Of a stretch of 64,000 nt of DNA, positions 3,087 to 57,066 are shown one piece after another. Each line of letters opens with the position of its first letter. The first letter of the stretch is position 1. This DNA comes from Guptibacillus hwajinpoensis (GTDB taxonomy: Bacteria > Bacillota > Bacilli > Bacillales > Guptibacillaceae), in assembly GCF_020171785.1 (NCBI RefSeq), contig NZ_JAIVAE010000003.1:434001-498000 (forward strand). The letters are read 5' to 3'. The translations under genes were made by a program, and so were the position numbers. The notes under the pieces are model-generated. The model worked only from the letters and a program-made list of their open reading frames with translations, did no database searches and was not told where the DNA came from.

Positions 3087-6000
3087 CTATTCTTTCGTAT
3101 TGATATTTAGTAATCCTTCCGCTGTTTTTCGTGTCTCGTTGCCAAAAGAATCTTTCACTTTCACTTCGATCTCAGCACCTTCAGCCACCACATTCGAAGT
3201 AGCTGTCCAGTAACCGACATAATGCCCTTCTGATACTTCCATCATTGGAAATTCAGTCATACTTGAAGGCATCATCGTTGGATTCACTAGCGGCATACGA
3301 ATTGAGAAAGTAGCCTTTATTCCTGGAGCGCTATCGAATTCAATTTTCACTGATTCTCCTGCTTGAAGATCTTTATTTTGATCTGGTTTTAATTGATTAA
3401 TGACCAATTCTTCTTGCTGGGAATAAACTTTGATCGACTTTTTCGTTTTATTTCCTGCTTTGTCTTTCGCCACTACTTTTATAATGTTCTCACCTTGCTC
3501 GAGCAGCATCCGATGTGAGAATACACCATCTTCTACTTTCGCTTTCGTTCCGTTAACCTTTACCCAAGCAAGATTTTCATCATGAACGTCACCTTTAACT
3601 GTTACTGATCCTTTATTTGTTTTCCAGTCATCTTTAGGAGATGTGATCGTTAATTCCGGTTTCGTTTGATCTAAAGTGACCATAACAGCATCAGATTCTC
3701 CCGTCATCCCACGATCAGTCGATGCACGAGCTGTTAACTGATTTTCACCATCGCTCAATTGGATTTCTGTTGTAAAATTACCTTCTTCATTAGAAGTTGT
3801 GACAGCTTCTTCTTCGCCATTTTTCATAACATGAACGTCTGTCATTGGTGCCGTCTCACCGTCAACTTCAATGCTATTCTTGTTTGTATACGAACCGTCT
3901 TTTGGAGATGTAATCATTGGTGCTGTTAGTTCATAATCAACGACTGCACGGATCATATAGTTCCCTTCCTCTTCAGGAGCCTTAGACCATGCGCCGCTAA
4001 CATATTGAAAGCTTCGGTCGACATATTCCCCGTCTTCATCTGTTGCAAGACCCGGAGCATTTGGATTGGCATCCGCTTGAATATAAGTGAGATAAAAATC
4101 ACCTTCTACGATCACTCCTTGATCAGACAGATCAACCATCGTCCATTCGCCATTTCGAAGAGCAGTCGCGTCAATTGGACCAGCGAGTTTCTTACCTGGT
4201 GCTCCATCCGGACCTGATGCATCATGAATTTCGACTTTAAAATTTGTGCCGCCTGGATTTGGCCATTCCGTATTCCAGAATCTAAATAACCCTCCAGTCA
4301 CAAGCGCACGTTCTTGACCTTCTGCTAGCGACATTTTCACAGCCCAACCGTTCCCAGCATCATAGAACGCTCTTGCGTTCTCAGCAGTACCATCGTCATA
4401 CCCGATTTCCCCTGCATATCCGATGAATGGGGAAAGATCAGCATTCTGTACAACGGTCTCGTTCGCTTCCACAGCGACGTTAAATGTTTCGCTATAGTAA
4501 CCAGCCGCAAGAACTTTTAACGTATACTCCCCTTCATAACCTGTTACTGAATAATGTCCTTCTTCATCAGTTTGAACAGGTGCTATAGCAGCATCTTCTA
4601 CTAATAAAACAGTTGCATCTTGGATTGGCTCTCCTGTTTCACTATTCGTGACTGTTCCTTCGATTTCTCCCTCTGGTATCGCTTCTAATGTGAAGTCAGC
4701 TTCTGTCACTTCATCATCTACGATCGTCACTTCCTGAGTCTCTGACTGGTAGCCATATGCTTCTGCAATAGCTGTGTAGTCCCCTGCTGCATGAGTCATG
4801 GAATAGCTCCCATCTTCCAAGTTCGTTGTTGCAGAGCGCCCTGTCTCAAGAATAGAAACTTCTGCTTGAAGCGGCAGAGCTTGAGGCGTAGGTGATGGTT
4901 TCTCTTGAACTGGATTTACAACAAGCGGTGAAGGTTTTAACTTGTCAGGATTGACTTTTTCTTTCGCTTTGGCACTAGCAGATTTTTCTTCAGGCTGAAT
5001 AGAAACTTTCGCGCTCTTTTTCTTAGCGGCGACTTCCATCGGCTCTGCTGATAAACTTACATCGTCAATATACCAGCCCTGCTTCATCACGCTACCATCC
5101 GTCTCGACGTGAAAAGCTAAATAAATCCGCTGATTTTCATAGGCTGATAAATCCACCTCTTCACTCACCCATTCATCAGAAAGATTATTATACTCCGCAA
5201 GAGCTTCCCAATTTTCCTGATCGGTTGAAACGAAGAGATGACCATAATCATAGTTTCTTTCTAGTTCATACCATTGATTGAATTGAAGATAAGCTTCACC
5301 TTCTGGTAAATCGATAGGAGGCATCATCAGCGTCATGTTAGCACTGTTGTCATATGCTCCATCAAGGTTGGTTCCATAAACCTTTTCTCCAGAGTAAGCT
5401 TCAGGACCAACCGTTGGCGTCCCCCACTCCCATGAATTATTTTCTCCCCAGCTCATCCATCCAGCTGGCTCTGATTCAAAGTCCGTTTCGTATCCTGTTG
5501 AAATACCAGGGATAATTTCTACCTGATATTCATCCGTTGTGACAACATGTCCACCATAGTCTTCGATTTTAAACCTGTAACTAACGGAAGGTTCACTGAC
5601 GGCGTCACCTGGAATAATAGCTTGATAGGATCCAGAAAGATAGTTCCCATCAATTCTTGTTGCTTCAGTTGACGTCCACTCTCCGTTATGAGCATATTCA
5701 AGCTCTACACTCGTTACGCTCACATTATCTGTCGCTGTGACGGTAAGAGGAAAGTCCATCTGAGCATAAGCCTCTGCAGGAGCATCGTGTTGATACGTAG
5801 GCTCTTCTTCATCGCTTCCTTCTTTCATTACATCACCCTCTAATGTACCGAGCCCACTCATAACAGAAGAAACAGCGTCAAATGCATTCACTAATCCATA
5901 ACCGTAACCATTATTCGGAGAATCTGGGAATTCATCGTCTGTAAGTGGTGTGACGGTGTTTAAAAAGATGTCTTCTATATCATCAACCGTCAACGATGGA

Positions 6001-7373
6001 TCTGCTTGACGAAGGAGAGCCGCGATCGCTGATACGTGGGGCCCAGCCATCGACGTACCATTCCACCCTCCTTCATAGCTACTCCCTGGTACCGCAGAAC
6101 GGATATTAACTCCAGGAGCTGAAACGTCAGGTTTTATTTCATCATATGGGGATGGTCCCTGTAGAGAGAAACTCCCAAGAGCATCATTGATATCTGTAGC
6201 TCCCGTAGCAAATGACTCAGGATAATTTGCTGGTGTTGCGATTGACTCCGGACCTCCGGGATTAAATAGTGTTGTATTACCCGCGGAAAATTATGGAAAT
6301 ATATCTGCATTTCGCCAATTTTGAACCATTGGGCGATACCATTCGTCAAGCCCAGGTCCGCCTCCCCAAGAATTGTTCACGACATCAGGAGCCTTCTCAG
6401 GGTGTGGATTGCCTTCTGCATCCTTAGGAGCAATAATCCATTCTCCTGCTTCAAGAAGATCGATATCTGTTCCACCGTCTTCGCTAAAAGCTTTTACCGC
6501 TATCCATTTTGCCCCAGGAGCGACGCCAATCTCATTCGAACCATCCGGTTCAGCGCCAACCATAGTTCCCATTGTATGAGTCCCATGTGCGAGATCATCA
6601 TATGGGGCGGCTTCTCCGCTTACAGCGTCAAACCAGTTAAATTCATGATCTACTCCTTCAGAACTATATCCTCGATACTGTTCCATAAGAGCGGGATGAT
6701 CCCACTGAACACCGGTATCAATGTTAGCGATCACCGTCCCTGCCCCATCAATTCCCATATCCCATACTTCAGGAGCACCTACTCGATCAATATTCCACTC
6801 AATTGAGTTCGTATCTGCAGTCGTTTTAGCCTTAGTTTTCGTTTTATCTGGAATTGGCTGAATCTGCCTGATTTCGTTAGGAAGTATTTTATCCACTTCA
6901 GGAAACGATGCTAACTGATTCATTACTTTTTTTGTTGCTGTTACTGCCATACCGTTTACGATGTAAAATGATTTTATGTCTTCTGCATTGCCTTTTTTCT
7001 CTTGTTGTTCTAAGTATGTGGACACAGAGTGTTGTGTTTCAATAGACGTAGCTCTTAACGCATTAACAACAGCTGATCGCTTAGTGATTTCAGCTTGAAA
7101 GGAAGTTAAGTTGTTTTTCTTAGCCTTTTCTTCAGCTTCTTTCGCAACTTTTGTCGTATCAGCTTGTTCTGCAAATTTAATCAAGAACGTTACTTTTTCG
7201 TTCTTCTCAAATGCTTTCGCTACCTTCTGATCAACGCGTTTCACTTCATCATTCATGGATACAGAAGAATCACTTTTCGCGTTCGCTTGCATCGCTGGTT
7301 GTATGAAGCTCGTGATGAGGAGAATAAAACAAGCAAAAAGAGCTACGATTTTACGTTTGCTTCGTTTTCTCAA
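3087..7373 (-). pseudogene. bpr: Bacillopeptidase F, interrupted by one in-frame TAA
   Basis: Secreted subtilisin-family serine protease. The frame is continuous for 1429 codons except for TAA at 6291-6293 (codon 361). Before it: a signal peptide (1-32), an inhibitor_I9-like propeptide, Asp219 (NIDTG) and His263 (HGTHTMG). After it, in the same frame: FSAGNTTLFNPGG, GTSMAGPH with catalytic Ser441, then a long C-terminus with repeated carboxypeptidase-regulatory-like and Ig-like domains. In bacillopeptidase F relatives as I recall them, the codon encodes Glu in IFPEFSAGN, so GAA to TAA is the simplest change. The truncated product lacks Ser and cannot be active. No frameshift is present; sequencing error or readthrough remain possible. 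Confidence 0.93.
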
Positions 7374-7469: not shown

Positions 7470-7903
7470 CCCAAACAAAAATGACTAAATTTTCAGAAAA
7501 TGATTCAATTCTCTCAAAGTACTTTTAATATAAAAAAATGATGATTGTCCTAGGTGTATGTAGTATTTTGACGGGCGATATCGTTTTTAAATAGCCTTTA
7601 GCGGTTAAGGACTATGGAAGCAGCGATGATTACTTTAGTAACACGACTATGACGAATTCCCTAAACCTTCTTTTTATTCCATTATGATACCAGTACAAAG
7701 AAGGACTTTTCTCAAATAACGCGTAATCGACATGCCATAAAGATTGAAAAACGATTCTCATTTGTCATCTTTCGCTAGTAATCGTGTCGTCAACCCCTTT
7801 CTTTTCAACACTAAAATCCGACAGTGTTTTCTCATGCCCACTTATAAAGTCGCGGTCTTTTTGTATGAATTAATGCAAAGACCAATTATGATATTTCCAC
7901 ATA

Positions 7904-7936
7904 AAAACCCCTCTTTCTTAAAGAAAGAGGGGTTTT
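7904..7936. terminator. Terminator of the ynj-like operon
   Basis: A near-perfect palindrome (16-bp arms around one base, AAAACCCCTCTTTCTT) lies 45 bp past the last gene of the eight-gene minus-strand operon. A T5 tract follows on the minus strand. The region 7374-7903 upstream of it holds no supportable gene. Confidence 0.85.
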
Positions 7937-7980: not shown

Positions 7981-9069
7981 TTACCCATTCACCTTGTATG
8001 TGTTCATAAACTTTTGATCAATTCGATTTTTTAATTTCCATGAGAGAGGATGATGAAGCACGATTCTCCCATATATCAGTAATCCCTTTTTCTGACCAGT
8101 AGAAAGGATCGACAAGTAAGTATTTTTAGGTTGGAAACGCCGACCATTCGCTTCTTTCATGAATCCCTTAATATTCTCCCAAAGGATCTCGGATTGTCGA
8201 ACGGCTACAACACCCGCTTTAGGAAGACCCGGATACTGCCGGATTGAAGCACAATCTCCCGCTGCAAAAATGGCAGGATACTCCTTTACTTGTAATGTAT
8301 CTTCTACAAGTAAGTAACCCTCTTGATCAACAGGTAATTGAGAAGTTTGAAATAAACCGGGAGCTTTTGGGCCAGTTAACCATAATACTTCATCATAAGC
8401 AATTTGGCTACCAGTTGAGGTGATAATGTGACTAGACGTGACGTTTGCCACTTTTTCTTTCAAATAAAGTGGCAAATTTTTATCTTGAATTATTTGCTTA
8501 ATTTCTTCCTGTGCCTTAGCAGAAGCATTTTCTAACAAGGGCGAATGAGAAATGATTGAAACGGGTTTCTTATCCTCAAGTTTTCGTCTTGCGGATAGAG
8601 ATAAAGCCATTTCAACTCCCGCAGCACCCCCTCCTACAACGACGGGGTTTTTTGCCTCCTGCATTGCTCTCGCTACTTCTTCTATACGATAGTTGGGTTT
8701 TATGCGTAGAGCATGCTTCCTTGCACCAGGGACATCGATTCCGGCTGTTAATGAACCGATATCAACGGAAAGAACATCATATGAGAGAATATCGCCTTTT
8801 TCGGTTAACACAACTTTCGCTTTCGCATCAATCGATAATGCTGCACCCTCTGTAAAATGAATGCCTGCAGCCTTTGCTAGTGTAGGAATATGTATACGCA
8901 TGTCTTCTTTGTTATACAGACCCTCGAGATAGCCCGAGAACATTCCAGAATAATATTGATACTCAGAAGGAGAAATGATTGTCACATCATGCTCTCCTTT
9001 TTCTTCCTTAAGCTTCCTCATGATGTAAAGATGAGCATGTCCTGCTCCAATTAACAACAGCTTTTTCAA
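7981..9069 (-). CDS. FAD-dependent oxidoreductase, SelD-N-terminal-like family
   Basis: 362 aa flavoprotein of the pyridine nucleotide-disulfide oxidoreductase class. The FAD dinucleotide fold is at the N-terminus (LLLIGAGHAHLYIM), the NAD(P) fold near residue 145 (VVVGGGAAGVEMAL), and the second FAD contact near IFAAGDCASI. GHAHLYIM and YQYYSGMFSGYLEG resemble the family often fused to the front of selenophosphate synthase; here it stands alone with no SelD domain. It lacks a CxxxxC redox pair. It is the last gene of the operon, 27 nt after the MerA/Lpd-like gene, so it probably acts in the same pathway. The electron acceptor (quinone or other) is unknown. Confidence 0.82.
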   Translation of the reverse strand: MKKLLLIGAGHAHLYIMRKLKEEKGEHDVTIISPSEYQYYSGMFSGYLEGLYNKEDMRIHIPTLAKAAGIHFTEGAALSIDAKAKVVLTEKGDILSYDVLSVDIGSLTAGIDVPGARKHALRIKPNYRIEEVARAMQEAKNPVVVGGGAAGVEMALSLSARRKLEDKKPVSIISHSPLLENASAKAQEEIKQIIQDKNLPLYLKEKVANVTSSHIITSTGSQIAYDEVLWLTGPKAPGLFQTSQLPVDQEGYLLVEDTLQVKEYPAIFAAGDCASIRQYPGLPKAGVVAVRQSEILWENIKGFMKEANGRRFQPKNTYLSILSTGQKKGLLIYGRIVLHHPLSWKLKNRIDQKFMNTYKVNG

Positions 9070-9096
9070 ACTTCTCCTCCTCTGTCCTCTGATTCC

Positions 9097-10533
9097 TTAT
9101 CGAACCCATTTAATGTATTTTTCTGATACCTTAGGCAGCCAACCATCAAATAATTTTTCTCTCCAAAATAAATCAGCTGCTTGATTTAGGATAGCACCTT
9201 TCGTTGGATATGGATGAATAACTGTAGAAATGTCTCCAATTTTATGGCCATGTTCTTTTGCAAACACAATTTCCTGCATCCAGCTACCAGCATCTTCCCC
9301 AACAGCATGAGCACCTAGAATATGCCCCTTCATGTCTGTTATTACTTTTAGAAGTCCATTTTTTTTGCGCTCAGCTATAAAACGATCCACATCTTCTGTA
9401 CCAACCTTGAAAACACGAATTTGATCGCCATGTTTCTCTTTCGCTTCCTTTTCAGTCATCCCAAGATGGAACACCTCAGGATCAATATAAGTAACCCATG
9501 GAACGTTCTCATAGCTTACTTTTCTCTTTAATCCAAACACCGCGTTTTGTACGATAAGCTTTCCTTCCATACCAGCTCCATGTGTAAACGGAAAGGCGCC
9601 ATTCACATCTCCGATTGCATAGATATGAGATTGGCTTGATTGTAATGTCGCGTTAACTGTAATAAATCCATTGTCCTCATCTACTGAAGCTGCTTTTAAA
9701 TTTAATTTATCTGTATTAGGCTTTCTACCCGTTGACATCATAATCATTTCTGATTGGATCATCTTCTCTTCGCCATTTTCAACATACGTCACAACTTTAT
9801 TCCCATTTTCCTCTTTAATTCCTTTTACTTCTGCATTAAATACAAATGAAAGCTCTTTTTCCAATTCCTTTGTAGCAATTGGAATGATATCATGATCTTC
9901 TTTTTTCAGAATGGTCTCAGAAGTTTCAAGTATGGTTACATTGGTGCCAAATCTTGAGAGAGATTGAGCAAGTTCAAGTCCCACAGGACCCCCACCTATA
10001 AAAACGATACTTTCAGGTAAGTGATCTAAATTGAAAATCGATTCATTCGTCAGATAAGAAACATGTTCCACTCCGTCAATTGGAGGGACTTTCGGGCTTG
10101 ACCCTGTGGAAATCACGATTCGCTTTCCTTTGATAGGGTTCTCTCCATCAATGAGAACAGTATGACTATCTTTAAATGCACCTTTGCCTCGGTAAATGTC
10201 TACCCCTAATTTCTCAAAGCGCTCATCGCTATCAATTTCTTGAATTTCATGGATCGCTTCTTTCACACGATCGATCGCACGACTAAAAAGCACTTCACCA
10301 CTGACCGTAAGTCCAAACTCTTTTGCGCCTTTATAGATAGCATGAACTTCTTTAGCTGCTGTAATAAAGGCCTTTGAGGGAACACATCCAAAATGAAGAC
10401 AATCTCCACCTAAACCTGGTTGATCATCAATTAAAGCCACATTTGCTCCCATATTAGCTGCACCAGATGCAGCAGTAAGTCCACCAGAGCCTCCGCCTAT
10501 TACAATTAGATCATATTCTTTCATTTGTTCCAT
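9097..10533 (-). CDS. Mercuric reductase/dihydrolipoamide dehydrogenase-like flavoprotein
   Basis: 478 aa. FAD fold IVIGGGSGGLTAA near residue 11, redox-active disulfide GGDCLHFGC (Cys45, Cys50), NAD(P) fold VFIGGGPVGLELAQ, and a C-terminal dimerisation domain. At the place where lipoamide dehydrogenase has His-Glu, it reads HPYPTKGA, with Tyr in the position that mercuric reductase uses. It has no N-terminal metal-binding domain and no C-terminal Cys pair, so Hg(II) reduction is not supported. It starts 5 nt after the CDP-alcohol transferase stop. This flavoprotein type is commonly found next to TVP38-family genes. The substrate is unknown. Confidence 0.85.
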   Translation of the reverse strand: MEQMKEYDLIVIGGGSGGLTAASGAANMGANVALIDDQPGLGGDCLHFGCVPSKAFITAAKEVHAIYKGAKEFGLTVSGEVLFSRAIDRVKEAIHEIQEIDSDERFEKLGVDIYRGKGAFKDSHTVLIDGENPIKGKRIVISTGSSPKVPPIDGVEHVSYLTNESIFNLDHLPESIVFIGGGPVGLELAQSLSRFGTNVTILETSETILKKEDHDIIPIATKELEKELSFVFNAEVKGIKEENGNKVVTYVENGEEKMIQSEMIMMSTGRKPNTDKLNLKAASVDEDNGFITVNATLQSSQSHIYAIGDVNGAFPFTHGAGMEGKLIVQNAVFGLKRKVSYENVPWVTYIDPEVFHLGMTEKEAKEKHGDQIRVFKVGTEDVDRFIAERKKNGLLKVITDMKGHILGAHAVGEDAGSWMQEIVFAKEHGHKIGDISTVIHPYPTKGAILNQAADLFWREKLFDGWLPKVSEKYIKWVR

Positions 10534-10538
10534 CTCCT

Positions 10539-11120
10539 CTATCCTAGTATCCTTTTTGCTTCTGCTAGTCTTTGAAAAGCAGTAAATAATTCAATTGCTA
10601 CAAACGCTAGTGTTAAAACAACTAAAAAATTGTGAAACAAAATCATTGCTGTAAATAGAATAAAACCTTCTGTCCTCTCCGCAGCCCCAGCTTGATAATA
10701 GAATGATTTGATCCCTTTTTTCTCTGACACAGCCCCTACTGTAAGGAAGATTGTCATGGCAAAAATGATGGAAGTGCTTAATAATAACAGTGCCCACATT
10801 GCTTCAGGAAATTGAAAAGCAAGACCTAATATGACACTAATTTCAACTACTCGATCAAAACTCACATCCAATACGGTGCCAAAAGCAGATGGCTTTGTTT
10901 TCCGAGCCATTGTTCCGTCCACAGCATCAAGAAAACCTGAAGCCCATAAAACGATAACCGCACAAACATAATAATCAAGGTAAATAAATATACCAGATGA
11001 AATACCAATAATGAATGAGATGACCGTTACTTGATTAGCCGATAAACCTATACGAAGTAGCGAATCTGAAGTGCGATCCATTAAAGGCTGAACATATTTT
11101 CTTGCATGAGTGTCAAGCAT
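10539..11120 (-). CDS. CDP-alcohol phosphatidyltransferase family protein (YnjF-like)
   Basis: 193 aa membrane enzyme that would move a phosphatidyl group from a CDP-alcohol to a second alcohol. The family motif is complete: VDGTMAR, seven residues, then GTVLDVSFD, which supplies the metal-binding Asp residues. About five or six hydrophobic segments follow. It sits 13 nt after the TVP38-like gene inside the operon. E. coli YnjF, beside ynjBCD, is of the same family. It could also be a second PgsA-like enzyme, but the context favours a specialised lipid. The acceptor alcohol cannot be read from sequence. Confidence 0.85.
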   Translation of the reverse strand: MLDTHARKYVQPLMDRTSDSLLRIGLSANQVTVISFIIGISSGIFIYLDYYVCAVIVLWASGFLDAVDGTMARKTKPSAFGTVLDVSFDRVVEISVILGLAFQFPEAMWALLLLSTSIIFAMTIFLTVGAVSEKKGIKSFYYQAGAAERTEGFILFTAMILFHNFLVVLTLAFVAIELFTAFQRLAEAKRILG

Positions 11121-11133
11121 GACAGCACCGTCC

Positions 11134-11790
11134 TTATTTCAGTTCTTCTTCAACAGAAGGTCCGAATGCTTTTCTGCGAATATATAGACTTACGAGTAGT
11201 AATAGAAGCAATACTGCAGCAGCAATAATGACCGATGAAATATTATTTGATAAAAAACTTGCGCCAAGAAAATTCAACGCAATGGCGCCTGGTAGCATCC
11301 CAAGCAGTGTTGCTAAATAGTATTTCCTTCGATTCACATTAGAAACCCCACAAACATAGCTAACTAAATCAAAATGGAGAAAAGGGACGAGACGCAACAA
11401 CAGGACATAAAGAAAACCCTTTTCCGATAATCGTTTCTCCAGGTTTTCTCCCCTCCGCTTCCAAGATTTCGGTAGAATGTTCATCCCTAACTTTCTTGCT
11501 AACGAAAAGAAAAGAAGAGCTCCTATGGAACCACCTACCACAGCAAGAACTGTGCCAAGCAGGGGGCCAAATACTAATCCACCACTGATTGAAATGATCG
11601 ATGTAGGAAAGAGAACAAAGGGACGACCAATACAAATAAGCAGGAAAATTAATGGGGCATAAAAGCCGAATGAGGAAATCCAACTACGAATGTGAGAAGG
11701 TCTAAAATCAAATACATATTGATTTAGTAAATAAATAACAATGATCAGTGCCGTTAATGCTAATCCTTTTAAAATTGTTTTACTTGTCAT
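11134..11790 (-). CDS. TVP38/TMEM64 (DedA-like) membrane protein
   Basis: About 218 aa with 5-6 membrane segments. The SNARE-associated/VTT domain is recognisable from FGFYAPLIFLLICIGRPF, the glycine-rich GGLVFGPLLGTVLAVVGGSIGA, and the conserved LRLVPFLHFDLVSYVCGVS. VTT proteins include DedA flippases for lipid carriers and TMEM41B/VMP1 scramblases. ATG 11790 overlaps the ATPase stop as ATGA, implying translational coupling; an upstream in-frame GTG at 11805 is less likely. A role in moving a lipid across the membrane together with the adjacent transferase is inferred. Confidence 0.85.
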   Translation of the reverse strand: MTSKTILKGLALTALIIVIYLLNQYVFDFRPSHIRSWISSFGFYAPLIFLLICIGRPFVLFPTSIISISGGLVFGPLLGTVLAVVGGSIGALLFFSLARKLGMNILPKSWKRRGENLEKRLSEKGFLYVLLLRLVPFLHFDLVSYVCGVSNVNRRKYYLATLLGMLPGAIALNFLGASFLSNNISSVIIAAAVLLLLLLVSLYIRRKAFGPSVEEELK

Positions 11791-12779
11791 TGGGCAAGTC
11801 CCCACTGATCTTTCTGAGTAGAATATTTTTTCATTTCTTCCCTCTTAGCACTTAACAGCACTTCTTGGCCAACAACTAAACGATTATCTGACATGGCAAG
11901 AACACTTCCCAGTTCCCATGAGATACGATAGCATTCTATGTTGTTTTTCACTGTAATCGCGCTTACCTTTCCTGAGACAAAAGTGAAATCCTGGATACTA
12001 GGTTTATCTTGAACTGGAATAGCTTTTAATTTACTAATAGGAATAAACCCTTCTTCTAGAGCCAAACCTTCTCCAATAATTTTAGCACTCTCCATAGATG
12101 AAGGATTTGTGACAACATCATAAGGATGACCAATTTGGATGAATCTGCCCTCAAACATAACCGCAAGTCTATCGCCCATTTCGATCGCTTCGTCACGGTC
12201 ATGAGTGATAAATAGTGAAGTGATGCCTTCCTCTCTTAATAAATCTTTCACCTCACCACGAAGTGATTCTCGTAGTGTAGCGTCAAGTGAGCTAAAGGGC
12301 TCATCTAATAAAAGTAGATCTGGTTTCAGCACTAGTGCTCTCGCAAGTGATACTCTCTGTTTTTGACCACCTGATAACTCATGCGGAAAGGCATCTTTCC
12401 ATTTAAACAGCTTCACTTTTTTTAACATTCGTTCAGCTTGCCTCACACGCTCGGTTTTTGATACTTTTTTTCTTTTCAAACCATAAGTTACGTTTTCTAA
12501 TACAGTTAAATGAGGAAACAATAACGAATCCTGAAACATCAAGACCACCGATCGATTTTCTGGTCTCAGTCTCACTATTGACTTTTCTCTTAAGTAAATG
12601 TCTCCTTCATCTAGACTTTCTAAACCAGCAAGACACCTGAGGAGTGTACTCTTACCACACCCTGAAGGCCCAACAACTGTAAAATGCTCACCTTCTTCAA
12701 GATGAAACGAAAGGTTTTGCAAAATGGATGTATTTGAAAATTTCTTATAAATATTTCTGCATTGCAATAGCTGGTTCAA
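11787..12779 (-). CDS. ABC transporter ATPase (YnjD-like)
   Basis: 330 aa. Walker A GPSGCGKST (about residue 38), Q-loop, signature LSGGQKQRVSLARAL, Walker B LLLLDEPFSSLD and H-loop ITHDRDEA are all intact, so it should hydrolyse ATP. The last ~110 residues form a TOBE-like extension typical of MalK/PotA/FbpC-class importers. It energises the two permeases encoded 13 nt upstream. The TVP38-like gene starts within its stop codon. Although FbpC-like by motif, the partner binding protein is of the YnjB kind rather than an iron or polyamine binder. Confidence 0.92.
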   Translation of the reverse strand: MNQLLQCRNIYKKFSNTSILQNLSFHLEEGEHFTVVGPSGCGKSTLLRCLAGLESLDEGDIYLREKSIVRLRPENRSVVLMFQDSLLFPHLTVLENVTYGLKRKKVSKTERVRQAERMLKKVKLFKWKDAFPHELSGGQKQRVSLARALVLKPDLLLLDEPFSSLDATLRESLRGEVKDLLREEGITSLFITHDRDEAIEMGDRLAVMFEGRFIQIGHPYDVVTNPSSMESAKIIGEGLALEEGFIPISKLKAIPVQDKPSIQDFTFVSGKVSAITVKNNIECYRISWELGSVLAMSDNRLVVGQEVLLSAKREEMKKYSTQKDQWGLAQ

Positions 12780-12792
12780 AACAATCTTCCTT

Positions 12793-13611
12793 TCAAACGC
12801 GATTAACAGCTCGAATAACCAGCCTCATCATAACTTCCACAAAACCAATAAATAGCAGGGGAAGCAAAGCAAAAAGAATTGAAAATCCTGCAATAACTGC
12901 ATCATTCGAACTCGAAAAATAAGGGTAATATAACATTGGGAGGGTAATCACTGTACCTCCACCAATAATAGCTGTTAGCGCATATTGTCCTAACGATATA
13001 ACAAAAGTTAAAAGCATTAAGCTTCTAATACTTGGTAGTAATAAAGGTAGTGCAATTGTAAAAAAACGCGTGAATAGGCCCGCTCCTAGTACAGATGCTT
13101 GCTCATATAGACTACTTCCCATCCTCTCATACCCTGCCCTCATGACACGAATCGCATAAGGTAGTGTAGGAATCAAATGCACAAAGACAACGCCTATCAC
13201 CTTATCAGCTATACCAAATTGTATCATTGTAAATTGAAGTCCCATTGCAAGTAAAATGCCTGGGATTAAAATAGGAGATAGCAACAGTCCTTCAATAATT
13301 GATTTCCCTTTGAACATATAGTGAGAGAGCGCCCTTGCTGCTGGTATAGCAAGAAGTAGATTTAATAATACAACTAAAAACGCAACCTTGAACGTTGTAA
13401 CAAGTGATTCGATTAATTTAGGGTCTTTCATAATACTCCGCCATGCATCTAAACTTAGTCCGCTTGGTAATAACGCTGGCCATCTCCATCCTACAGAAAC
13501 GCTTTTCAACCCTATTGTTACAAAGGGGAGGATGAATAATATGATAAACAAAATAAGCATAAAACTAGTTGCTAACTCCCTTTTCCCTAAACCCTTCAAA
13601 AATAACCTCAT
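12793..13611 (-). CDS. ABC transporter permease 2 (YnjC C-half-like)
   Basis: 272 aa, six predicted membrane helices. The BPD_transp_1 coupling loop is seen in EQASVLGAGLFTRFFTIALPLL, matching the EAA consensus that docks on the ATPase. Its start overlaps the end of permease 1 by 4 nt. In E. coli the equivalent YnjC is one long protein with two such units; here the function is split over two adjacent genes. Confidence 0.9.
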   Translation of the reverse strand: MRLFLKGLGKRELATSFMLILFIILFILPFVTIGLKSVSVGWRWPALLPSGLSLDAWRSIMKDPKLIESLVTTFKVAFLVVLLNLLLAIPAARALSHYMFKGKSIIEGLLLSPILIPGILLAMGLQFTMIQFGIADKVIGVVFVHLIPTLPYAIRVMRAGYERMGSSLYEQASVLGAGLFTRFFTIALPLLLPSIRSLMLLTFVISLGQYALTAIIGGGTVITLPMLYYPYFSSSNDAVIAGFSILFALLPLLFIGFVEVMMRLVIRAVNRV

Positions 13612-14492
13612 CTGCTTCTCCCCTTTATCATTCTAAGCCTATGTTTTTGCACAGCTCCGATGGAAAGGGTCGCAAGAAGAAGGGCGATCACACCCGGAAG
13701 AATCATAGCTGAAAAAGCAAGTGGGCGCTTGCTCCAATCGCCATTATAGAACCATTCATACGCTCTGACCGGAAGCATTTCTGGTCGTGTGACTCCTAAT
13801 AAGTATGGAATTTCAAACGCCGAAGCGACAAATGCAACTAATATTACTGAAGTTTCAATGAGTACGGGAAGTAACCATGGTAATTCAACTGTTTTAAAAG
13901 CATCCCAATTACTTCCACCCAGCGTACGAACAACTTCTGAATAGCGGTGATCGATCTCATAGTAAACAGGCAAAAGCATGAGAATGACAAAAGGAACTTC
14001 CTTCCATACATATGTTAAAATGATCCCGATTCCAAATTCCTCTTGAACAAGAACTGGAAAGTTTGCTCGATTTTCTAATGCCCCTATTTGATAAAGCAGA
14101 GAAGAAAGCAGTCCGCTTTGTGAAAGGAACAGGAACACTAAATAACCTGCAACAAAATGCGGGATTAACATTGGTATCCATACAAGTAGCTTCCACGTTG
14201 AAACTTTAAATAATTCATATAACATTCTTGTCATTACTAATCCTATCACTAACGATAGTAAGGTTGACAGAATAGCAACTCGAAATGTTAATTTAAGAGA
14301 ATGGAAAAAAGCATCACTACTAAAAAGTTCTGCGTATGTTGCGATCGTCCACTCTCCGTCTATTGTTTGAAAACTTTGAGCTACCGCTGACCACGTTCCA
14401 TACCCTACCAGTAACAATGTGATCGCAAACGCAGGTAATAAATATAAACTTATTTTCCAGTTATTGCTCAACAATCCGATTCGCCCATTCAT
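13608..14492 (-). CDS. ABC transporter permease 1 (YnjC N-half-like)
   Basis: 294 aa inner-membrane permease of the binding-protein-dependent importer type, about six helices. The EAA-like loop is SEVVRTLGGSNWDAFKTVELPWLLP. The gene overlaps the 3' end of the binding-protein gene by 32 nt and the next permease by 4 nt, so the three are translationally coupled. Substrate direction is import, judged from the dedicated lipoprotein binding protein. Confidence 0.9.
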   Translation of the reverse strand: MNGRIGLLSNNWKISLYLLPAFAITLLLVGYGTWSAVAQSFQTIDGEWTIATYAELFSSDAFFHSLKLTFRVAILSTLLSLVIGLVMTRMLYELFKVSTWKLLVWIPMLIPHFVAGYLVFLFLSQSGLLSSLLYQIGALENRANFPVLVQEEFGIGIILTYVWKEVPFVILMLLPVYYEIDHRYSEVVRTLGGSNWDAFKTVELPWLLPVLIETSVILVAFVASAFEIPYLLGVTRPEMLPVRAYEWFYNGDWSKRPLAFSAMILPGVIALLLATLSIGAVQKHRLRMIKGRSR

Positions 14493-15699
14493 TATTAATC
14501 CACTCCGTGTAACCTGTATCTATGTCTGGTAGCTTATACTCGTTTAAGGCTTCTGTTGAAAGAACACTTTCTCCTCGATTAAGAGTTTCAATCATTTGCT
14601 GGTCCTCTTCACTCAATTTATCGAAATTCAAAACCGTTCCTTCTCCCCACATCTTAGGATCCATTTTAGCTATTTGAGCTTCTGGCGACTCCAAAAAATT
14701 AATAACCGTCATAGCTCCTTCTGGATTTGGGCTATTAAATGGAATACTGAGATAATGTGTATTTGAAATCGAGCCAGGATCTTTTAGAACAAATGACTTC
14801 GTACTATCAGGGAACGTTCCATTCTCAATTAAACTTTCACCTCTTGCTTCATTAAAGCCCATCGTCATTAAGATTTCGCCCTGACTATAAAGCGTATCAA
14901 GTTTGGTTAATGATTCAGGGTATGTTTCACCATTACGCCAAAGGTCAGACTTAATATCATTAAGGTAGTTCCAGACGTACTCCTCAGAGTCTTGAATAAC
15001 TTTTTTGTCAAACCCCTTAGATAGAAGACTTGACTCTTCACCTGCCCCCTTCATGAGAAGGTGCTTCACAAATGTATTGCCCGTAAAATCAGAAACGTTA
15101 GGATACGTAAACATCCCAGGATTATCGTGAATCCACTGTTTTAATTCACCAAGTGTACTAGGAGGTATGTCGACTTTACTTGAATCGTAATGAAAAACAA
15201 ATTGAACATTTCCCCATGGAGCTTCTAAACCATTAATCTCCGTTCCCTGGTCATAGTTAGCATTTTGGTCCTGAGTTCCAATATATTCTTGAAAATGAGG
15301 CAATTTCTTTGAGAAAGAACCTAGTAATAAATCTGCATTCTTAGCATTTTTAAAGTTTGAGCCATTAATCCATATGACATCAATCGTACCCTCATTTTTG
15401 TTCGCTTTTTTCTCTGTCAAAAGCTTTTGCATAAATTCTTCAGTATTCATCGGTTGACGGTTAAGAGTAATATTGTGTTCTTCTTTTAATCGTGGGGCAG
15501 CCCATTTATCAATGTATTGATTAATCCCTTCATCTCCTCCCCACATAAAGAGATTAACCTCTGTTCCCTTAGAGGAGGTTACGATTTCATCCCACTCCTT
15601 TGACAATACCTCTTTGTTACCCATTTCATTGGATTCACTATTCCCACATGCAACAATAAAAAGTAGCGTTGCAATGATGAATGTAACCTTTCGCTTCAT
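14461..15699 (-). CDS. ynjB: YnjB-like ABC substrate-binding lipoprotein
   Basis: 412 aa lipoprotein; the lipobox is FIVACGN with Cys18, so it is tethered outside the membrane. The mature protein keeps motifs I recognise from E. coli YnjB: a WGGDEGINQYID-like stretch after the N-terminus, IDVIWINGSNF, EAPWGNVQFVF, FTYPNVSDFTG, and a C-terminal DPKMWGEGTVL block. The ligand of YnjB proteins is not established. ATG follows AAGGGGGAAACGAG. It is the first structural gene of the operon and is preceded by an 18-codon leader-like ORF. Confidence 0.88.
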   Translation of the reverse strand: MKRKVTFIIATLLFIVACGNSESNEMGNKEVLSKEWDEIVTSSKGTEVNLFMWGGDEGINQYIDKWAAPRLKEEHNITLNRQPMNTEEFMQKLLTEKKANKNEGTIDVIWINGSNFKNAKNADLLLGSFSKKLPHFQEYIGTQDQNANYDQGTEINGLEAPWGNVQFVFHYDSSKVDIPPSTLGELKQWIHDNPGMFTYPNVSDFTGNTFVKHLLMKGAGEESSLLSKGFDKKVIQDSEEYVWNYLNDIKSDLWRNGETYPESLTKLDTLYSQGEILMTMGFNEARGESLIENGTFPDSTKSFVLKDPGSISNTHYLSIPFNSPNPEGAMTVINFLESPEAQIAKMDPKMWGEGTVLNFDKLSEEDQQMIETLNRGESVLSTEALNEYKLPDIDTGYTEWINNEWANRIVEQ

Positions 15700-15725
15700 C
15701 TCGTTTCCCCCTTGTATAAACTATC

Positions 15726-15782
15726 CTAGCAACTGAAAGACACATTTGACGAACTTGATTGTGCTATATACGCATCCATCAT
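15726..15782 (-). CDS. Possible 18-aa leader peptide of the ynj-like operon
   Basis: ATG 15782 is preceded by AGGGGGAAATAG, a strong ribosome site, and by TATAAT on the minus strand about 20 bp further up. It encodes MMDAYIAQSSSSNVSFSC and stops 26 nt before the binding-protein start. Four Ser codons in a row, two more Ser and a terminal Cys recall attenuation leaders. No clear competing hairpins were found between it and the next gene, so coupling rather than attenuation is equally possible. Confidence 0.35.
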   Translation of the reverse strand: MMDAYIAQSSSSNVSFSC

Positions 15783-18311: not shown

Positions 18312-18431
18312 CAGTCTTTAACAGAGCTCTCCCTCATCTTCCAGAGCTAAAGCTCTGCTGGAATTAGCACCTTGTTTATCAGGTTGCCGGGCATCAAAGG
18401 GCCAGTCCCTCCGCCTCTCTCGATAAGGAAA
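18312..18431 (-). promoter_or_regulatory. SAM-I (S-box) riboswitch
   Basis: Minus-strand sequence contains the S-box core in order: GAGAGGCGGAGGGACTGGCC, GATGCCCGGCAACC, AAGGTGCTAATTCC, then a GC-rich P4-type hairpin AGAGCTTTAGCTCT and GAAGATGAGG. These are the diagnostic conserved blocks of the SAM-I aptamer. With the following terminator it should switch the yuiH-type gene off when S-adenosylmethionine is plentiful. Confidence 0.95.
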
Positions 18432-56962: not shown

Positions 56963-57066
56963 CTCTTATCTCTCAAGATTTCTCTTGCTGGAAGCAGCAC
57001 CTTTCTGAATGTCAGAGGTTGCTGAAGCTTCTTCGGGCCAGATCCCTCCACTTCTCTTAATAAGAA
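56963..57066 (-). promoter_or_regulatory. SAM-I (S-box) riboswitch
   Basis: Minus-strand blocks in order: CTTATTAAGAGAAGTGGAGG, GATCTGGCCC, CAGCAACC, AAGGTGCTGCTTCC, TTGAGAGATAAG. P1 forms between the opening TCTTAT and the closing ATAAGA. This is a complete S-box aptamer; SAM binding would let the following terminator form and shut off the transporter. Confidence 0.95.

Follow-up and report, generated by a model that had tools for sequence, protein, structure and literature searches.

Uptake of a head group from outside the cell and its attachment to a lipid are combined in choline salvage, in which choline imported by the ATP-binding cassette (ABC) transporter ChoXWV is joined to cytidine diphosphate (CDP)-diacylglycerol by phosphatidylcholine synthase (Pcs), a CDP-alcohol transferase. 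To our knowledge neither a scramblase nor flavoproteins take part in this route, and its binding protein belongs to another family than the one considered here. Head-group salvage of this kind is nevertheless the closest in working to an operon of Guptibacillus hwajinpoensis, found in a stretch of 64,000 nucleotides (nt) that is called the window throughout (assembly GCF_020171785.1, contig NZ_JAIVAE010000003.1, positions 434,001 to 498,000 of the forward strand). The operon consists of eight genes, encoding an importer of the YnjBCD type with two permeases, a membrane protein of the VTT/TVP38 type, a CDP-alcohol phosphotransferase (hereafter CDP-OH) and two flavoproteins, named here MerL and NSelD; what it adds to choline salvage is the scramblase-flavoprotein arm. 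The gene set recurs in distantly related bacteria and looks like one real, still uncharacterised system; we regard the chances as even that the operon is one form of a widespread modular system for salvaging a small molecule from outside into a membrane lipid.

Related gene clusters

The corresponding genes of Escherichia coli K-12 are arranged in the order ydjX (VTT), ydjY (4Fe-4S), ydjZ (VTT), ynjA (AhpD-like), ynjB, ynjC, ynjD and ynjE (sulfurtransferase), with ynjF (CDP-OH) converging on them, whereas the CDP-OH gene of the window is co-directional with its neighbours. Both loci have YnjB, YnjC (one gene in E. coli), YnjD, YnjF and VTT proteins. The original prediction had taken the VTT protein for an addition relative to ynj, which is not the case, because the E. 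coli locus already carries two DedA/VTT proteins, YdjX and YdjZ; the difference therefore lies in the redox partners, which are YdjY (4Fe-4S), YnjA (AhpD-like) and YnjE (rhodanese-type) in E. coli and MerL and NSelD in the window. Activation by FNR is listed for the E. coli genes ydjXYZ-ynjABCD and ynjE (PMC3688515), ynjA and ynjB appear as slightly raised in a table of the BaeR regulon (PMC2731931), and YnjB has been tabulated as a homologue of polyamine-transporter binding proteins (PMC9397018). In the literature covered, which did not extend to subscription papers and preprints, no established role was found for ynjBCD or ynjF, nor any description of a combined importer, VTT, CDP-OH and flavoprotein system under the topics ynj, TVP38, arsenosugar-lipid and TIGR04282/83.

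Two other groups of genes bear comparison. The DedA proteins of COG0398, kin of human TMEM41B and VMP1, are described as putative phospholipid scramblases tied to aerobic metabolism, whose most frequent fusion partner is the pyridine nucleotide-disulfide oxidoreductase PF07992/PF02852 (Todor et al. 2023, PMC10127716); these fusions resemble the window in combining a VTT domain with the same flavoprotein fold, and the accessible part of that account does not mention YnjBCD, CDP-OH or NSelD as partners. Clusters built around ArsS (TIGR04167) resemble YnjBCD loci in places, through VTT, MerL, TIGR04282/TIGR04283, DUF3047 and fatty acid (FA) hydroxylase genes, and differ from the window in having ArsS and, in the 20 loci read, no YnjB or CDP-OH.

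The operon and its products

Eight open reading frames (ORFs) on the minus strand, at 7981-15699, form a compact operon, as judged from the ORF list and the sequence, with junctions of -32, -4, +13, -19, +13, +5 and +27 nt; all eight co-directional genes that had been predicted are present. The first encodes a YnjB-type substrate-binding lipoprotein (14461..15699; SBP_bac_8), the N-terminus of which ends in a lipobox-like IVAC and which scores 429.5 bits with NF008633 (cut-off 203). It is followed by ABC permease A (13608..14492) and permease B (12793..13611), both matching PF00528 (BPD_transp_1), and by a YnjD-like ATPase (11787..12779; PF00005, ABC_tran). The VTT/TVP38 gene (11134..11805; PF09335, VTT_dom, 90.9 bits against a cut-off of 33.9) and the YnjF-like CDP-OH gene (10539..11120; PF01066, CDP-OH_P_transf) come next, and MerL (9097..10533; Pyr_redox_2 and Pyr_redox_dim) and NSelD (7981..9069; TIGR03169, Nterm_to_SelD) close the operon. 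Permease, ATPase and CDP-OH genes thus adjoin the binding-protein gene, and the predicted family assignments stand, as judged with Pfam and NCBIfam profiles. The division of ynjC into two genes, earlier presented as a feature of this locus, is nothing peculiar to it: a fused-permease profile matches 10 of 136 YnjB loci and all 23 loci of a Pseudomonadota sample, and two permease genes are found elsewhere.

In a fold search of the binding protein against the PDB, glycoside binders are among the tied matches. Residues D107, D150, W110, N60, N112, N115, F210 and some glycines are present in all 136 YnjB proteins; the statement that YnjB lacks a conserved basic residue was dropped, positions 212 and 120 being Arg or Lys in more than 90%.

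MerL, a flavoprotein resembling lipoamide dehydrogenase and MerA, has mercuric reductase 5x1y as its best PDB match. As predicted, it combines a disulfide motif with a mercuric-reductase-like Tyr: it shares the fold, CxxxxC and the MerA-type Tyr, here within HPYPT, with mercuric reductase and lipoamide dehydrogenase. Unlike these enzymes it has no cysteines other than the two of CxxxxC, lacks the catalytic His of the lipoamide-dehydrogenase HAHPT type, and stays below both cut-offs, with 352 bits for MerA (TIGR02053, cut-off 454) and 346 bits for dihydrolipoyl dehydrogenase (TIGR01350, cut-off 409). MerA carries a C-terminal cysteine pair. Mercury detoxification was rejected on these grounds, the cysteines having been checked over the whole window protein; the family alignment of MerL spans the domains, and the C-terminal pair was judged on the window protein alone.

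NSelD corresponds, as predicted, to a stand-alone SelD-N-terminal-type flavoprotein. It aligns with TIGR03169 over its full length (2-365 of 365) at 295 bits, just below the cut-off of 310, which makes it a near relative of that family, and its ORF ends after the flavoprotein domain, with no C-terminal selenophosphate synthetase domain of SelD. Its best matches among solved structures are an NDH-2-type protein and FSP1. Sulfide:quinone reductases (SQR) require two cysteines; NSelD has one, and SQR structures rank below the NDH-2-type and FSP1 matches, so that this function was discarded.

Recurrence of the gene set

The neighbourhoods of 136 YnjB loci were compared: the window, E. coli, 9 plasmid loci, 80 genome loci (the best 80 of at least 576 confirmed by similarity to the window protein), 20 loci from a Bacillota sample (299 genomes, 26 with YnjB) and 25 from a Bacilli sample (299 genomes, 47 with YnjB; 19 of 21 loci outside and 6 of 26 inside a family designated f143 were read). 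In addition, all 23 loci of a Pseudomonadota sample were read (YnjB over the cut-off in 23 of 249 genomes), and 39 stretches of 20 kb at arbitrarily chosen coordinates served as controls. Neighbours were scored with profiles within 9.5 kb of YnjB, at score thresholds chosen by us; a gene without a match in this range may lie elsewhere in the genome, and some contigs are short. The first locus set supplied the clusters from which the profiles were built, so that matches within it are partly circular; loci L156-L175, L250-L274 and L315-L337 were scored only after the profiles existed. Contig or gene positions show that two loci entered the counts under two designations each (L025/L270 and L084/L337).

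Among the 136 loci, CDP-OH was matched in 76, VTT in 70, MerL in 41, NSelD in 29, an iron-sulfur/flavin adenine dinucleotide protein (FeS/FAD, NF045663-like) in 21 and rhodanese in 19. The controls contained no VTT, CDP-OH, NSelD, rhodanese, kinase, glycosyltransferase (GT) or nucleoside hydrolase gene and one match to the MerL profile, which carries the lipoamide-dehydrogenase motif HAHPT. YnjB, ATPase, CDP-OH, VTT, MerL and NSelD occur all together in 21 of the 136 loci, window included, and the window's gene content is found once more among the 23 Pseudomonadota loci (L334, where DUF3047 and a divergent nucleoside hydrolase join CDP-OH, VTT-MerL and NSelD). In the Bacilli, all 25 loci read have CDP-OH, 18 VTT, 14 MerL, 13 NSelD and 21 any redox gene; the figures for the Pseudomonadota are 15, 8, 6 and 2 of 23 for CDP-OH, VTT, MerL and NSelD. 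Recurrence spans Bacillota, Fusobacteriota, Spirochaetota, Chloroflexota and Pseudomonadota, and, set against near-empty controls, bears out the proposal that the grouping is a real system.

VTT accompanies 61 of the 76 CDP-OH loci, 6 of 14 loci with a kinase or GT and 3 of the 46 others. On a tree of the 136 YnjB proteins, changes in VTT coincide with changes in redox genes (7.6 vs 0.1 independent pairs; median p 0.008), and any attachment gene and VTT likewise vary jointly (6.2 vs 0, median p 0.03); a tree of 88 rows gave 7.3 vs 0 (p 0.016) and 4.9 vs 0 (p 0.06), respectively. VTT and MerL, moreover, are encoded in one reading frame in 6 of 6 Pseudomonadota loci with MerL, with the motifs CxxxxC and IHxYPT, and again in Pseudoalteromonas (L014). 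The window VTT, which from its TVP38 type we take to be a COG0398 member, is most similar within the set to the VTT of a Metabacillus plasmid operon (44% identity). In a VTT tree it groups, with support, among 29 rows (27 operon VTTs, itself and one paralog of its own genome); this phylogeny was not used as evidence because the tree has long branches. A different fusion, of MerL to DUF1499, occurs in a Planococcus-type operon (L033, 7417-9309).

The CDP-alcohol transferase and its replacement

All 76 family members carry the eight residues of the CDP-OH signature DxxDGxxAR...G...D...D without variation. The nearest solved relatives of the window enzyme are the prokaryotic phosphatidylinositol-phosphate (PIP) synthases (PgsA1/PIPS), from which it differs in several ways: the window protein reaches 65.6 bits with NF045883 (PIPSynth; cut-off 170), and neither of two alignment registers preserves equivalents of S132 and K135. 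R155 and R195 of PIP synthase have phosphate-binding roles (PMC4634129, PMC6506517). The two arginines do not occur together in the family, the R155 position being Arg in 0 of 76 proteins, which makes a phosphorylated acceptor less likely.

In three Bacillota loci (L160, L166 and L168) with VTT, FeS/FAD and YnjBCD genes, CDP-OH is swapped for an APH/choline-kinase-like kinase together with TIGR04282-type and TIGR04283-type enzymes; rhodanese is present in L160 and L166. Fourteen of the 136 loci are of this kinase/GT kind, 6 with GT enzymes and the rest with the kinase alone. The TIGR04282- and TIGR04283-type representatives of L073 pass the NCBIfam cut-offs (193.6 vs 134 and 253.5 vs 182 bits). 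Both its name and a weak match liken TIGR04282 to CofC, so that kinase, nucleotidyl transfer and glycosyl transfer may be an alternative way to put the imported molecule X on an acceptor. A Pseudomonadota locus (L315) combines the swap with VTT-MerL and with NSelD; the NSelD frame is open up to the border of the fetched stretch, and this genome has its SelD at another place. CDP-OH and kinase/GT genes were never found together in the 136 and the 23 loci (0 of 159; Fisher p 4e-7, relatedness being ignored and the two duplicate pairs included). The replacement of the transferase by a kinase and/or TIGR04282/83 enzymes, and the presence of VTT, MerL and those enzymes also beside ArsS, are new here.

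Other genes and features at the loci

Upstream of the operon, as had been noted, lies a leader-like ORF of 18 codons preceded by a Shine-Dalgarno-like GGGGG stretch (15726..15782, minus strand), and downstream of the last gene a perfectly paired, AT-rich hairpin precedes a run of T, resembling an intrinsic terminator (7903..7932, minus strand), which an automatic terminator scan did not pick up; an automatic promoter scan gave no match directly ahead of the operon. The leader-like ORF is probably incidental because eight relatives, inspected by eye and without alignment, showed no counterpart ahead of the gene for the binding protein; attenuation by a leader peptide was dropped for the same reason. 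The two Rfam matches of the window at gathering thresholds are S-adenosylmethionine (SAM) riboswitches (RF00162) located away from the operon, at 18331-18429 and 56963-57066 on the minus strand (88 and 87 bits). Downstream of the operon a gene for a subtilase-like secreted protease is apparently split into two minus-strand ORFs (3087-6050 and 6291-7373), judging from the translations. The genome has one match to YnjB, 7 to VTT and 3 to CDP-OH, the operon genes among them, and a single close match to NSelD, the runner-up reaching 123 bits.

Several other genes were observed near YnjB. In five Bacilli loci (L019, L023, L026, L250 and L262; the L019 member was scanned) the operon has a gene for a Crp/Fnr-family regulator in its vicinity, and a gene resembling the membrane part of lysylphosphatidylglycerol synthase recurs in VTT-bearing clusters (L030, L031, L164, L167, L169, L261 and L263; the L031 member was scanned). 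A PrdB/GrdB-like selenoprotein gene, with an in-frame TGA and the motif PG-U-YICHQS, is present in L030 (8975), L031 (8988) and L259 (13757, plus strand), and members of the same ORF cluster occur in L252 and L257. Pairs of YedE/YeeE-like Sulf_transp genes on the YnjB strand were seen in L050, L157-L160, L162, L163 and L168, one member per ORF cluster having been scanned; a role in selenium transport has been proposed for YedE (PMC5322559). Five Chloroflexota/Actinomycetota loci (L066, L068, L069, L070 and L077) carry YnjBCD with nucleoside hydrolase, purine nucleoside phosphorylase (PNP) and TIM-barrel genes, and in three cases an ADP-ribosylglycohydrolase; they are another context of the YnjBCD transporter family.

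A model of the system and its alternatives

In the model that we favour, YnjBCD would import a neutral, glycoside- or nucleoside-like alcohol, the hydroxyl of which CDP-OH, whose enzyme class is indicated by the intact motif, would couple to CDP-diacylglycerol, yielding phosphatidyl-X. The VTT protein, by its family of the scramblase type, would move this lipid between the leaflets, and MerL and NSelD could feed NAD(P)H- or quinone-linked electrons into the head group or a membrane partner. Elsewhere, as the gene contexts show, a kinase, in part accompanied by TIGR04282/TIGR04283 enzymes, stands in for the transferase, and 4Fe-4S/FAD proteins and rhodanese for the electron arm.

A number of results weigh against this salvage model. 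The original prediction held that ABC genes kept without the lipid and redox genes would make the grouping accidental, and such loci do exist: in 41 of the 136 no attachment, VTT or redox gene lies near the ABC genes, so the transporter family is broader than the system with CDP-OH, VTT and flavoproteins. CDP-OH is likewise missing from 8 of the 23 Pseudomonadota loci, 6 of which have the ABC genes only and no attachment gene; where only the importer is present, YnjBCD must have another purpose, or its partners must be encoded in another part of the genome. CDP-OH is present in the Exiguobacterium locus L041 and in the loci of family f143, accompanied in some of them by NSelD and in none by VTT or MerL. 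In tree-aware tests CDP-OH taken alone is not significantly linked to VTT (5.5 to 0.3 pairs, median p 0.06) or to redox genes (5.0 to 0.5 pairs, p 0.125), and the mutual exclusion of CDP-OH and kinase/GT shrinks to 0 to 1.1 independent pairs (p 1). As to the substrate, the 50 listed fold matches of the binding protein lie within 2 Z units, so that no ligand class is proven for YnjB, and the PDB is rich in sugar binders; the closest PDB matches at the sequence level are polyamine binders (weak, E 5e-5). Finally, a phosphate-bearing acceptor may still apply to CDP-OH, because the equivalents of R195 and R94 are Arg in 73 and 66 of the 76 proteins, respectively.

The emphasis could also be placed on the redox genes, YnjBCD importing a sulfur or redox precursor for a membrane electron-transfer device made of VTT, MerL and NSelD, with CDP-OH merely making its lipid environment or anchor. 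No pair is better supported than VTT with the redox genes, and fusions join VTT to MerL; the FNR-activated listing of the E. coli genes, the Crp/Fnr-type regulators near five Bacilli operons and the PrdB-like selenoprotein genes of L030, L031 and L259 point in the same direction. However, CDP-OH is the most constant neighbour in the Bacilli (25 of 25, as compared with 21 for any redox gene and 18 for VTT), and its exchange for a kinase or GT would make little sense if it provided a mere lipid background, which leaves this explanation unlikely. That the genes are neighbours by accident, or through a general tendency of operons to cluster, agrees with the absence of the extra genes from the 41 loci mentioned above; given the controls (0 of 39), the recurrence over five phyla, the fusions and the tree-aware contrasts, it is scarcely credible.

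Two further explanations concern the chemistry of the imported molecule. It might be a ribose or nucleoside bearing As, S or Se, in which case the operon would parallel the ArsS route to arsenosugars (arsenolipids), fed by import and using the same lipid and redox modules. ArsS was over the cut-off in 46 of 148 genomes of another phylum, and among 20 neighbourhoods read VTT was present in 8, TIGR04283-type enzymes in 7, TIGR04282-type in 6, MerL beside VTT in 3, DUF3047 in 2, rhodanese in 2 and FA hydroxylase in 1. The three MerL proteins carry the HPYPT motif of the window MerL, DUF3047, DUF547 and FA hydroxylase genes are also found alongside YnjBCD, and the GT enzymes of L073 pass both of their cut-offs. 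Nucleoside hydrolase occurs in 12 of the 136 YnjB loci, with PNP in 5 of these, and anaerobe loci bear rhodaneses and the YedE-like gene pairs. Against this stand the 11 ArsS neighbourhoods of 20 with none of the profiled genes, the absence of YnjB and CDP-OH from all 20, and the fact that nucleoside hydrolase accompanies CDP-OH in none of its 12 loci and only once in the Pseudomonadota (L334); "arsenosugar" for TIGR04282/83, moreover, is a database name. ArsS was over the cut-off in 0 of 42 YnjB genomes (those of 41 of the 80 named loci and the window's own, with a best E of 1.7e-5), for which reason the arsenosugar pathway as such was rejected and is retained for the common modules only. Seen thus, an imported heteroatom sugar is quite unlikely; ArsS and YnjBCD clusters may still share a lipid-redox module with different entries. 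A service of the operon and NSelD to selenium metabolism would fit the presence of SelD over the cut-off in 17 of 22 YnjB genomes, the window's own included, with an in-frame TGA in 13 of the 17; the own SelD (G000:C2:570417-571343, minus strand) is of this form, so the genome probably uses selenocysteine. The "near Sec" similarity to NF045663 and the YedE-like genes, both below cut-off, agree with it. Yet over the whole 299-genome Bacilli sample SelD occurs in 12 of 47 YnjB genomes vs 77 of 252 others (p 0.60), and selenium was given up as a common theme; without family f143 the figures are 12 of 21 vs 77 of 252 (p 0.016, post hoc). NSelD lies beside the operon in genomes that have no SelD over the cut-off (L020, L025, L027 and L041) and thus need not serve selenium, and no SelD match at E 1e-30 was obtained in 3 of the 6 Pseudomonadota genomes with VTT-MerL, which together make this role very unlikely.

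Beyond the salvage model, a lipid-borne redox cycle can be imagined, in which an imported heteroatom or thiol glycoside, carried on phosphatidate, would be flipped by VTT, oxidised outside and re-reduced by VTT-coupled MerL and NSelD. It is a distinctly improbable proposal; if true, a diffusible lipid would carry reducing power, or metalloid or chalcogen chemistry, across the membrane, and one lipid-redox module would be entered by way of ArsS arsenolipid clusters as well as YnjBCD clusters. The salvage model has consequences nearer at hand. Bacterial COG0398 DedA/VTT proteins are described as scramblases only putatively (PMC10127716), and a recurring operon in which a VTT protein is joined by a single importer, a single lipid-attaching enzyme and a single flavoprotein offers a testable substrate route from the YnjB ligand to the lipid. 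The exchange of CDP-OH for a kinase and TIGR04282/83 enzymes, together with the genes common to the ArsS clusters, likewise gives a handle on the lipid steps of arsenosugar metabolism.

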